From Sipunculus nudus (lineage: Eukaryota > Annelida > Sipuncula > Golfingiida > Sipunculidae), in NCBI GenBank assembly GCA_026874595.1, contig CM049318.1:48712456-48776455 (forward strand): DNA of 64,000 nt, read 5' to 3'. The notes beneath the pieces were generated by a model that ran no database searches, was not told the origin of the DNA, and saw only the letters and a list, made by a program, of their open reading frames with translations. This document shows, piece after piece, positions 12,934 to 57,910 of the stretch (position 1 is its first letter; each line of letters begins with the position of its first letter). Both the position numbers and the translations under genes were made by a program.

Positions 12934-13135
12934 ATGAACCTTCAAACGATTCTACAAACCTGCCTCGTTTTGGTCGTCTGCACATCGGCCAAGGAGGATG
13001 GTGGTCGTGAAACCCCGGATGTATCTGTCTGCGAGTCCAGACCTTGTCAGAATGGCGGGAGTTGCTATGTATCTCGTCTGAGTGGTTACAGGTGCCAGTG
13101 CTTGGAAGGTTACGTTGGGAAAAATTGTGAAAGTG
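12934..13135 (+). CDS. EGF gene exon 1: signal peptide and EGF 1
   Basis: ATG at 12934, donor AGTG|GTGAGT, ends phase 1. After the leader comes one EGF with [12 protein letters not shown] and [13 protein letters not shown]. It matches both the O-glucose (C-x-S-x-P-C) and O-fucose consensus. An AG at 12919-12920 after a T-rich tract suggests a separate upstream 5' UTR exon, as in the paralogue. Confidence 0.85.
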
Positions 13136-16100
13136 GTGAGTTACCACAGAAACATATCATTAGTTATCACAGAGACATGGCATTAGTGGGGGAAAAGTTA
13201 GAAAAGCACGAATTCGTGATCAAGCTTTCACCGTCCACATATATATGATGCCTATTATATAATGATCATGCTTTCACCGTCGGCATATATATGAAACCTA
13301 TTATTATAATGATCAAGCTTTCACCGTCAACATATATATGATGCCTATTATTATAATGATCATGCTTTCACCGTCGGCATATATGAAACCTATTATTATA
13401 ATGATCAAGCTTTTACCGTCCACATATATATATGCCTATTTTTATAATGATCATGCTTTCACCGTCGGCATATATATGAAACCTATTATTATTATGATCA
13501 AGATTTTACCAGCCACATATATGTGAGGACTATTATTATAATGATCAAGCACGAGCTGTGTATCAGACACACGTTCTAGCTTGTTTTCAGCTGATCCTTG
13601 TCTGGAGAGCCCTTGTGTGAACGGCGGCACCTGCGTGACTTTCACCAGGTACGGATCTGGCTGGGGACAATACTGCGAATGTCCAGAGGGATTCAAGGGG
13701 AACACCTGTGAAATAGGTATGTAGTCTGGTCTGGGGAGACCGCAGTACACCAGAAGAGTAAATTAAAAGACCAGATATGGTCAATGATCCTCTGAATCGT
13801 TTACCAATCAAGGAACGTTAATTAGAAATCTTTGGTCAATATGAAGACATGGTCTGTGTCAATCGAATATAAATATTGAAGATGAAGAATGAAAATGTTT
13901 TTGATAACTGAATTTAATATTACTCTGGCGAAGTTTTTGAAAGTTCACAAGAAATAAAAATGTTTAGTGATGTTTAAAGCTAAAGTTATACATACGACAT
14001 GGAACTTTCTGATTAATTAGCGGACGTTACCATTGCTGCATATGTGTCATATGCGACGTCTGTTATTTGACATTCGTCACCTGGCATGCGACAACCGGGT
14101 AATAGTCTGTCACGAAAATGACAGCCGCCGCAAAATAATTGAGATAACTTTGGGGGGGGGGGGGGAATAATCCTGTAAGGGTCTAGTTATATGGTTGCGG
14201 GGATGCGACCAGAAAGTTCTCCTACAGGACCCCGTTAGGCCAGAGTCCAAACGGGAATGTATCTCCTGAGAGTGTTTGGTGTATGAATAAGAGCTGAATA
14301 ACGCTTTGTCGCGACCACGCCCAATCCACAAATTACAGTAGAACTACGTCACAGTGGAATGTCTGCCCACTCGATCAGTTGTCTGGTGAAAGTGACCCTC
14401 GTGGTCCCCGAATAGGATACTCTTATTAAATAATAGGTCATATTAAGCTTCCACTTAAATCCCGCTTCAACGACCTATTATGACATTAAAACTGTTTTAT
14501 CGTAGCCATGTATCCATTACCAGCAAACCCCTGCGTGCACAGGCCACACGCTCACGAAGAGAGGCCACATCCGCCGGCACAGGGTCATAGTTTTGTGGCA
14601 CAACCACAAGACACAAATTGCTGAAAAGAATCATTTCATACCATTTGCATTATATGGAACTACTAGTTTGACGACTGAATTAATTTGAAAGAAACGTCAC
14701 AAAGAAAAAATCGTTCCCGTGGTATAATGTTGAGTCAGACAAAGCCGTTATATACTATATAAGTATCATTTATGTTTCTTTGGTTTATAGGTGAACAAAG
14801 TGACAACCCGTGTGACCAGAATCCGTGTCAACATGGCGGTACTTGTCACTCCTATAAAGAAAAGGGTGTTGGCTGGAAACATTACTGCAGGTGTCACCAA
14901 GGTTACGGCGGGAAGAACTGTGAAATAGGTCTGGATAATAATTTCCAGAAAGGTTTTGTCTTTTAACTTGAAAGGATGAAAAGTGCACCCCAAATAAAGA
15001 TTTCAGTAATTTTACTACGAAGCTGAATATAGTGAGAGTTTTTTTAGCTCACACATGATCTTTATACTGAAAGCTATAACCACAGCGTGGCATCCCCCGA
15101 CCTCTGTCTGTAAAAAAGCTTTCTCGATCAGCAATTGTCCTACGATTTCTCGATCTCTTGATATTGTGTTTACATATGTATATTCGTCAAAAGAGCTAAA
15201 AATTAAATTAGAAGACGCCAGATGCACGTTTGATTTTTCGTTTGGTGTGTTAAAGGGTCACTAGAAATTCTACGCTTTAAAACCTGTTATTATGCAGTCA
15301 TGGTGTTAAGAGTAAAAGTATTTGCATCATCATCACATATATACCTGTCATCATGCAAAATTAGAGAAAATTGATTTAATCAGTTTTTCATTCCAAATGA
15401 ATTTTTTCTTTCTTGAAATGCAACCATAGCAGCCATGACAGTAATACAGACTGCACAAAATTACATGAGATTTATGCGTGAAACACCTAAATAATCTCTG
15501 TATGTTTTAAAAACTGAGATAAATTATCAAATTTCAAGAAAAGAAGACCCTTGCTGTTATAGTTTAATCGGATTGGATTGATTGGTTTGTGGGTTCTTAT
15601 GTATATGTTACGCATACCATAATTAGATTAAAAAAAAGGGCAAGCATGCTTTATGTGTCTTCATTGTTTAATTCTGTCTAGAAATATAAAAAGTTAACAG
15701 AATGTGATTGGTCTCTTGTATTTTTGCACTTGATCTTTTCAGCCGATGTTTGTACCACCTTAAACCCATGTAAAAATGGCGGGACATGTCACGTGTATCG
15801 TTACGGGGGATACAGATGCAGGTGTCCAAAGTCATATGGTGGCAGGAATTGCACTCAAAGTAGGTGAACTTATTTAAATCTACAAGAACAATAAGTTTCC
15901 ATTGACCTTGGCTGAAAGTCATCTTATGTGAATTGAAATTTAAAAAGGCCATGCCAATTTGTGAACAAATATTTTAAAGTATCATTAAAAACTATATTTT
16001 TTAAAAGCTTCACGATAATCAACTGACATTAGCGGCATTAGTTTTAAACAAGTATTGATTGTAAGAAAAATACAATTTTCATACAGTACTGTCTTTAGAT

Positions 16101-56300: not shown

Positions 56301-57910
56301 CCTATATATATGACACATTGAACTTTGCTTGGCAATCCAGATATATTCACACCTTTCAGCTGATAGGTTTCTACTGCGCAAAGATTGAATGGCAGATTTA
56401 GAAACTTTTTACTGTACATTGGAAAACTGTATCTGATACTGTAGCTGAAAAATGCACAGGATACTATAAAGTTAATTAAATTAAATTTTCTGTATATTCA
56501 CATATACGTTTACTGTATTGAAACAAAATAAACTAATTGTTCCAGTCTTTTATATCAGTAGCATTATCTGCACTTGAAGACAAGTTTTGGTCCATCCCAT
56601 AAACGACAGACGGTGCTATTATATAACAGACTCTTGTACCTATTTTAATATTAATAGATAACAAATCAGGGACAAGTGAACATTTTGTTGAAATGGCCAT
56701 GGAAATACATCGTAGCATGCCTCAAGATAATTTATAAATTAATAAACTACAGATTAGACAAAGGTTTGTTTTAAACTCTAACTTTGATGCTCTAGGAAAA
56801 AAGAACATGCTGTAATTATAATGTCTGACTCTATGAGAGGGCCTCAGGCCCTGATTCACAGTAACAAACTACTCTGTGCCCTGATACACAGTCAAGGTCG
56901 CCGTCAGGTGGCGCTGCAATAGCCTCTCTTAAAGTAATTTGAATGTTCTCTGGTTTAATGGAGAAATAGGAAAATAACCCCCTTAGGACACACTTTGCAT
57001 ATCCGAGTTGCCACCGAGGAGTTCCGTGACAAACGTCCAGTGCGACCACAGTCAATTATAACATAGATTAATTCTCCTCAAGCTTGTCACTTTTTTATGT
57101 TACCGTTTTAATATTTTATACACTATTAATATAACACATAATTGAATATATGTTTCTGTTTTATGCATTTTATTTGATTGAGTACCTTCCTCGCAATACG
57201 GGCCTGTGAAGTTCCCCGGGCACAAACAGTGGGCTGACCAGCCATCGTGTGTGGGCATGCAAGTGCCACCGTTGTGACAGGTGATGTTTTTACACGGATC
57301 CTCTAAAAAAACAAATACATCTTAATCATGTGAGTCGGAATGTAATATCTCAGATATAGGAATTGTTTTCTTTGGTCCATATTTTGCAATGAAGTTGTTA
57401 TACCAGTATTTGAACAGGTACATCACAGCTTCTATGATGTGAAAGGAATTACTATCGCTTTAGGGAACATTTATAGATGTAAACTAAAGTCGTGGAAAGG
57501 AGTTTACAAGTACAGACAAATACATCCATTTAGCATTTATATTAAAAATAAGAAGAACAACACCTGTAACAACTTGTACCATCTAACACTTCAATCTGAG
57601 TTAATATTTGCCCAATTAATCAACAAATGAAAATATTTGTTTGCCCTCAACATTTATAATACATATTTATGTGTCACCAATACCATGTATTAAAAAAGTT
57701 TGAATAATTAAACTTACCACGTTCGCAAAATATTCCATAATAGCCATTCCTACAGTGGCACCTAAATTGTATGTCATCTCCTACACATGTGCCACCATTA
57801 TAACAGATGACGTTGTCACACGCCAAACCTGGACGTGTCGTGGTAGATGTCGTGGGCATTGGCAACGCAGGCGTTACCATGATAACGCACAGCAATAGCA
57901 CGGTAACCAT
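50257..57910 (-). CDS. Paralogous secreted protein: 2 EGF plus 20-Cys domain (whole gene, nine coding exons)
   Basis: Minus-strand coding exons: 57910-57718, 57302-57186, 55890-55821, 55484-55315, 54494-54386, 54027-53900, 52711-52648, 51902-51739, 50336-50257. Phases all join, giving about 364 residues. The protein has a signal peptide (LLLCVIMVTPA), a short Thr-rich linker (PTTSTTTRP), two EGF-like repeats (to residue 103) and a 261-residue domain homologous to the C-terminal half of the plus-strand gene. Exon by exon the lengths are 70/70, 170/170, 109/112, 128/131, 64/67, 164/164 and 80/98, and all 20 cysteines are kept. Predicted secreted. Sequons NET, NIT, NFT and NNT are present. The domain is not one I can name; function unknown. 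A TATA box and non-coding first exon lie about 3.4 kb upstream. Confidence 0.85.
51739..51902 (-). CDS. Second EGF gene, exon 8: 20-Cys domain
   Basis: Acceptor TTTCTTAG|A, donor GAGT|GTAAGT, 164 bases. TLTCTAEGL, EKCQPVS, a helix, then PACAKVAE. Confidence 0.85.
52648..52711 (-). CDS. Second EGF gene, exon 7: 20-Cys domain
   Basis: Acceptor CCTTGTAG|GT, donor GCAG|GTATGT, 64 bases. GCNYHAVMMKCVDQDLLLNP then CR. Confidence 0.82.
53900..54027 (-). CDS. Second EGF gene, exon 6: 20-Cys domain
   Basis: Acceptor TGTCATAG|A, donor GCAG|GTGAGA, 128 bases. ERCVKM, LPLENCGAYSY, LTMPCA. Confidence 0.85.
54386..54494 (-). CDS. Second EGF gene, exon 5: 20-Cys domain
   Basis: Acceptor GCTTTCAG|AG, donor TAAG|GTACTG, 109 bases. 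VPKCAQETQKCGELMVYLYR and VCNETLR. Confidence 0.85.
55315..55484 (-). CDS. Second EGF gene, exon 4: 20-Cys domain
   Basis: Acceptor TTAATTTCAG|A, donor ATGG|GTATGT, 170 bases. REQCYQRDI, RRSCACTESD, HYEVIGKCL. No long ORF of its own; identified by homology to exon 12 of the plus-strand gene. Confidence 0.86.
55675..55747. repeat. (TA)n microsatellite
   Basis: About 70 bases of TA with one CATACA interruption, in an intron of the second EGF gene, about 75 bases from an exon. Confidence 0.9.
55821..55890 (-). CDS. Second EGF gene, exon 3: start of 20-Cys domain
   Basis: Acceptor TTTTTGTAG|AG, donor GCAG|GTGACG, 70 bases. RCLISQIKCDNFRPNETDFE then MC. Confidence 0.84.
57186..57302 (-). CDS. Second EGF gene, exon 2: EGF 2
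   Basis: Acceptor TTTTTTTAG|AG, donor GAAG|GTACTC, 39 codons, phase 1-1. PCKNITCHNGGTC and HCLCPGNFTGPYC. O-fucose consensus present. Confidence 0.87.
57718..57910 (-). CDS. Second EGF gene, exon 1: signal peptide and EGF 1
   Basis: ATG at 57910 in a strong context (TGCGCCATGG); the exon begins at an acceptor TTTTACAG at 57934, so the 5' UTR is spliced. Leader MVTVLLLCVIMVTPALP, Thr-rich linker, then CDNVICYNGGTC and FRCHCRNGYYGIFC. Donor CGTG|GTAAGT, phase 1 as in the paralogue. Confidence 0.87.

Follow-up and report, generated by a model that had tools for sequence, protein, structure and literature searches.

Multiple EGF repeats are a feature of the Notch ligands Delta and Jagged and of secreted multi-EGF proteins. 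In green mussel, the foot proteins fp-2 and fp-5 are encoded by EGF-repeat genes with tyrosine-containing terminal peptides, as described in PMC7971044. The window analyzed here, a stretch of 64,000 nucleotides from Sipunculus nudus (assembly GCA_026874595.1, contig CM049318.1, positions 48,712,456 to 48,776,455), contains two EGF-repeat genes on opposite strands, referred to as the plus gene and the minus gene. They are arranged tail to tail with AATAAA signals between them, and both encode a C-terminal domain with 20 cysteines. It is almost certain that this domain is real and that the libraries searched do not catalogue it. Judging from sequence, it is reasonably likely that both genes encode members of a family of secreted proteins with multiple EGF repeats and this domain at their end, which would be helical, locked by disulfides and used for extracellular binding. 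Both gene models were reassembled from splice sites in the genomic sequence and consist of the following parts, given in window positions:

12934..30129, plus strand: plus gene exons 1-10, coding for a start resembling a signal peptide and for ten EGF repeats, each in an exon of its own (exons 1-5: 12934-13135, 13591-13716, 14791-14928, 15743-15859, 16820-16942; exons 6-10: 17828-17950, 21261-21392, 23288-23404, 25144-25260, 30007-30129)
31452..42125, plus strand: plus gene exons 11-17, the 20-cysteine C-terminal domain (31452-31521, 31899-32068, 33987-34098, 34593-34723, 39223-39289, 41533-41696, 42028-42125)
42436..42441, plus strand: AATAAA signal 3' of the plus gene
57186..57910, minus strand: minus gene exons 1-2, a signal-peptide-like start and two EGF repeats recognized by pattern (57910-57718, 57302-57186)
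50257..55890, minus strand: minus gene exons 3-9, the 20-cysteine C-terminal domain (55890-55821, 55484-55315, 54494-54386, 54027-53900, 52711-52648, 51902-51739, 50336-50257)
50070..50075, minus strand: AATAAA signal 3' of the minus gene

According to the splice-site reconstruction, the plus gene comprises 17 exons (12934-42125) with 710 codons and the minus gene nine exons (57910-50257) with 365 codons, both including the stop codon. The reading frame is preserved across every intron of both genes and all acceptors are AG. All donors are GT, with the sole exception of a GC donor at exon 5 of the plus gene (TATAG/GCGAGT, window position 16943, plus strand). Judged by eye, both proteins have a hydrophobic signal-peptide-like stretch at the start and none at the end.

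The original prediction held that the two genes share a C-terminal domain, and this is borne out with regard to exon lengths, phases, motifs and cysteines. The last seven exons have lengths of 70/70, 170/170, 112/109, 131/128, 67/64, 164/164 and 98/80 in the plus and minus gene, respectively, and enter in phases 1-2-1-2-1-2-1 in both alike. The encoded domain of 271 residues in the plus gene and 262 residues in the minus gene contains the motifs FRPxxxTDFE, CxCT, ELM, CNxTLR, LPLxxCG and DKWxC. Identical residues occupy 90 of the 262 aligned positions (34 %), and all 20 cysteines are aligned. The alignment score exceeds the mean of 200 shuffles of one sequence by 57 standard deviations, and in any of these controls at most 12 cysteines were aligned, compared to 20 in the real pair. 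At the DNA level, window positions 31001-42600, which hold the domain exons of the plus gene, showed no similarity in sense orientation to the region of the minus gene at E<=1e-3. Therefore, the likeness of the two genes reflects conserved protein sequence between old paralogues.

Searches of the source assembly of the window (1.43 Gb, 153 contigs), whose counts are lower bounds, revealed at least nine loci with the domain on six contigs, comprising the two window genes and seven more. Contig C13 carries four copies in the order plus gene (+), minus gene (-), third gene (+) and C13d (-), and five further copies are located on contigs C5, C6, C8, C11 and C12, one on each, after which they are named here. 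Coordinates of the copies outside the window are as follows:

48831695-48849433, contig C13, plus strand: domain exons of the third gene
48871005-48866593, contig C13, minus strand: domain exons of C13d (also L051:2593-7006)
L052:241-7697, contig C8: C8 copy
L017:6956-8734, contig C5: C5 copy, one open frame of 592 codons with EGF repeats and the domain, its coding region without introns, and an AATAAA shortly downstream (by eye)

The first matches were weak for some copies (E 0.007 for C12, 0.24 for C11 and 0.37 for C8), and these three were confirmed by several additional exons nearby. The domain is complete in eight copies, and the C6 copy was modelled in part (domain exons 2-6). All eight intron-bearing copies are in frame and have identical phases over the exons seen, with a reservation for the fifth domain exon of C12, C11 and C6 that is taken up below. 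The C5 copy, which may be an ancient retrocopy that has remained intact, is only 17-22 % identical to the other copies, yet has 20 cysteines in the same order. Additional weak genome matches (E 0.78-5.3) on C4, at C13:48382637, at two places on C7 and at C5:40818042 are outside the nine-locus count.

Across the family, the length of the domain ranges from about 245 to 270 residues and the pairwise identities from 17 % to 84 %. Exactly 20 cysteines are present in all eight complete domains with near-constant spacing. Intervals 1 to 10 span 5-6, 12-14, 13, 13, 1, 20-24, 11-20, 6, 14-16 and 10-13, and intervals 11 to 19 span 13, 20-21, 2, 7-8, 9-12, 11-13, 8-10, 23-25 and 14-15. The partial C6 copy has all 16 cysteines among those that its modelled exons cover. 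The eight-row alignment of the domain, A3, has 18 cysteine columns without any variation, while the remaining two are shifted by a few places; the invariant residues other than cysteine are D59, V76, L146 and W261 (numbered as in the first row).

The original prediction could not match the domain to a named one, and the profile check against Pfam agrees with this, as none of the eight family members matched any model at E<=10. Neither of the two members scanned against NCBIfam matched a model, the eight-row profile matched no PDB chain at E<=10, and a single-sequence search of the PDB with the minus-gene domain gave no match. A PDB match of a four-row profile to complement receptor 1 (E 4.4e-6) was rejected as compositional, since no single stretch passed and the match was gone with eight rows. 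Matches of the consensus sequence to NifU (E 0.48), SLR1-BP (E 0.071) and a designed filament (E 0.71) are at chance level, and four PHROG matches of one member each (best E 0.0046) were judged likewise. Viral and prokaryotic contigs contained 40 and 52 pattern-matching stretches, respectively, among which no relative was confirmed. No internal repeats of the domain were detected by hhalign of three sub-profiles (E 0.13-0.45), and no description of the domain was found in the literature, judged by titles and abstract beginnings. The Pfam release searched holds no model for a clearly real domain that occurs at nine loci and keeps its 20 cysteines at 17-22 % identity. It is likely that such proteins are annotated by their EGF repeats alone, so that the probable functional part would be overlooked. 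Alignment A3 can serve as the seed of a profile, making the distribution in other animals, the fold and the disulfide pairing directly testable.

The proposed helical character of the module is supported by an amphipathic periodicity of hydrophobicity. When averaged over the eight complete copies, the power at the helix period was above that of all 200 shuffles, and the power at the sheet period was reached by 81 of the 200. With cysteines neutralised, these numbers were 0 and 49 of 200, respectively. Several cysteine steps (7, 14, 21-22 and 11 residues) fit helices; others do not. The sequence makes it quite probable that the domain is helical and disulfide-locked, and the even number of cysteines suggests up to ten disulfides. 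It is doubtful that it represents a new fold. An improbable alternative is a divergent form of a known helical disulfide-rich receptor fold, likeliest of the GDNF receptor alpha (GFR-alpha) or GAS1 type, which would bind a growth-factor-like ligand. Visual comparison shows that the domain shares C-x6-C starts and a C-x(13-14)-C-x-C element with GFR-alpha, and like GFR-alpha it is cysteine-rich and extracellular. Against this type of fold stand the lack of any Pfam family match among the eight members at E<=10 and the eight-row profile, which found no PDB chain though the set includes 16 distinct GFR-alpha sequences. A direct hhalign comparison with GFR-alpha yielded a probability of 0.2% for the whole protein, and single domains reached 0.1-0.4%. 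The comparison carries little weight, since the controls within GFR-alpha are themselves low (D2-D3 2.6%, D1-D2 1.0%, D1-D3 0.2%).

The claim that the domain always stands behind EGF repeats holds for seven of the nine copies, with ten repeats in the plus gene, two in the minus gene, at least three in the third gene, six in C5 and four each in C12, C11 and C13d. The word always goes beyond these data, as a pattern search of 2.3 kb of sequence preceding the C8 domain yielded no EGF repeats. PF00008 covers ten stretches in the plus gene with 151.4 bits (cut-off 21.5, E 6.3e-45) and reaches 57.1 bits in the C5 protein (E 2.1e-15), where six EGF units are recognized by pattern; the two units of the minus gene were identified by pattern alone. 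Each of exons 2-10 of the plus gene has a length divisible by three and is entered in phase 1, so that gain and loss of repeats would be easy. A 51-base minisatellite of 36.9 copies (window 25231-27102, plus strand) starts within EGF exon 9 of the plus gene. Its unit carries the 3' end of this exon plus the donor site, and GCAGAGTGAGTATG is found 18 times in it, whereby many duplicate 5' splice sites are offered.

The EGF part also bears on other possible affiliations. The model PF25024 (EGF_TEN) passes its cut-off of 65 in the plus gene with 71.5 bits and fails in C5 with 49.3 bits, and EGF_Teneurin remains below its cut-off (19.6 vs 24.3 bits). Beyond these models over the EGF repeats, Pfam scans of the plus gene and C5 gave no match to teneurin models. 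The motif C-x4-[ST]-C, the O-fucose consensus, occurs in seven of ten EGF units of the plus gene, two of two in the minus gene, one of three in the third gene and four of six in C5. It would fit secreted Notch-pathway modulators that lack a DSL domain and act as ligands through O-fucosylated EGF repeats. Such EGF motifs are widespread, however, and no DSL or MNNL-type domain was detected by Pfam in the part scanned, namely residues 1-449 of the plus protein, which hold its EGF repeats, the eight C-terminal domains and the whole C5 protein, with the EGF part of the minus gene outside the scan. A role in the Notch pathway is highly improbable.

Unequal EGF numbers in neighboring copies have a precedent in green mussel fp-2 and fp-5, whose EGF-repeat genes occur as tandem copies with differing numbers of EGF repeats (PMC7971044). 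By analogy, the window proteins could be adhesive or structural matrix proteins with mechanical EGF repeats and a cross-linking C-terminal domain. The tail behind the last cysteine contains one tyrosine in each window protein, unlike the terminal peptides of fp-2 and fp-5, and the accessible portion of the same source does not mention a 20-cysteine domain for mussel foot proteins. A matrix role of this type is unlikely.

The suggestion that a local inverted duplication gave rise to the two window genes is not supported. In a tree of the domains, the minus and third genes form a pair (support 97/99). The minus gene is 62 % identical to the third gene, whose first modelled exon is about 56 kb away, compared to 34 % to the plus gene. 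C13d, C8 and C6 form another group (99/99), C11 and C12 are grouped less firmly (83/87), the position of the plus gene is unsupported, and C5 sits on a long branch. The plus-gene domain is 35 % identical to those of the third gene, C13d and C8. A simple inverted duplication was rejected as the whole story of the pair on these grounds, and given the pairing of the minus with the third gene, the window genes are old paralogues rather than the products of a single recent inversion. That a tail-to-tail pair was duplicated as a unit, as the +,-,+,- order on C13 might indicate, is neither shown nor excluded; it would predict that the plus gene joins C13d, and the plus-gene identities are 34-35 %.

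Selection was assessed by pairwise ratios of nonsynonymous to synonymous substitution rates (dN/dS) for five pairs using the Nei-Gojobori method. The ratio is 0.23 for the minus and third genes, with a synonymous rate (dS) of 1.26, and 0.38 for C12 and C11. For C13d and C8 it is 0.93 over the domain, where all 20 cysteines are kept at 63 % identity; the chance of this under random change is 0.63^20, about 1e-4. This pair may exemplify diversification while the frame stays constant. The combination of a constant frame and a variable surface suggests recognition, whether immune, gamete or matrix, instead of catalysis.

The window proteins are best read as secreted proteins in which an EGF spacer, variable in length, carries a helical tip locked by disulfides. 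The domain would form a bundle of helices held together by as many as ten disulfides, and the EGF repeats would hold it away from a partner or the matrix. It might then bind extracellular partners, with surfaces that change between paralogues while the disulfide frame stays fixed. There is about an even chance that it acts as a binding or recognition tip. A more far-reaching version, in which a new disulfide-locked helical fold of one animal lineage serves as a rigid recognition scaffold whose surface diversifies among at least nine paralogues in an immune- or gamete-like manner, is rather speculative. If true, some paralogues would be under near-neutral or positive selection.

Several points weigh against the interpretation as a family of secreted proteins with EGF spacer and binding domain. 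The gene models outside the window were drawn by eye with the window genes as a guide, although all read in frame. In C12, C11 and C6, the pattern that located the fifth domain exon prescribed three cysteines as well as the phase, and the donor of this exon is either a weak GT or one selected because it fitted. For this reason, three of the 20 cysteines in C12 and C11, or of the 16 in C6, are present partly by construction. The fifth exons of C12 and C11 were located separately and have nearly identical sequences, a third unrelated candidate having been set aside; the start of the C6 exon was also matched by tblastn (ECNFTGVVRC, E 0.12), and six of the eight complete copies are independent of a pattern-found fifth exon. 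In pairwise global alignments, 17-18 of the 20 cysteines of C5 are in register with the plus, minus and third genes, and 19 of 20 between the minus and third genes. The order of EGF repeats followed by the domain rests on seven of nine copies, with C8 and C6 not among them. The negative results from the libraries, at sequence and profile level, are compatible with a known fold and with a family that is recorded in other databases or has yet to be published. Two of the five dN/dS pairs, plus-minus and plus-C13d, are saturated and the dS of minus and third is near saturation, and the ratio near 1 for C13d and C8 may equally reflect relaxed constraint.

Beyond the two genes, the window contains a 32-base minisatellite of 41.3 copies (58233-59550) and a 52-base minisatellite of 24.3 copies (62737-64000) that runs to the window end. 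Two long open frames lie at 5643-7960 on the minus strand, one of which (6608-7960, minus strand) matches Transposase_21 below the cut-off (E 0.0058) and is perhaps a DNA transposon remnant.

Among known systems, Notch ligands such as Delta and Jagged likewise have multiple EGF repeats, and differ by the DSL or MNNL-type domains for which Pfam gave no match in the parts scanned here. GDNF receptor alpha and GAS1 are alike in being cysteine-rich and extracellular and, by eye, in the C-x6-C and C-x-C elements, whereas their cysteine spacing differs. Mussel fp-2 and fp-5 (PMC7971044) are similar with respect to their EGF repeats and tandem copies of differing EGF number and are set apart by the single tyrosine per tail found here. 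Multi-EGF secreted proteins with PF00008 repeats correspond in the N-terminal EGF part, and the C-terminal domain is without a Pfam match in the genes described here. A secreted multi-EGF protein with a terminal domain is a known kind of protein, and the terminal domain itself is the new part.

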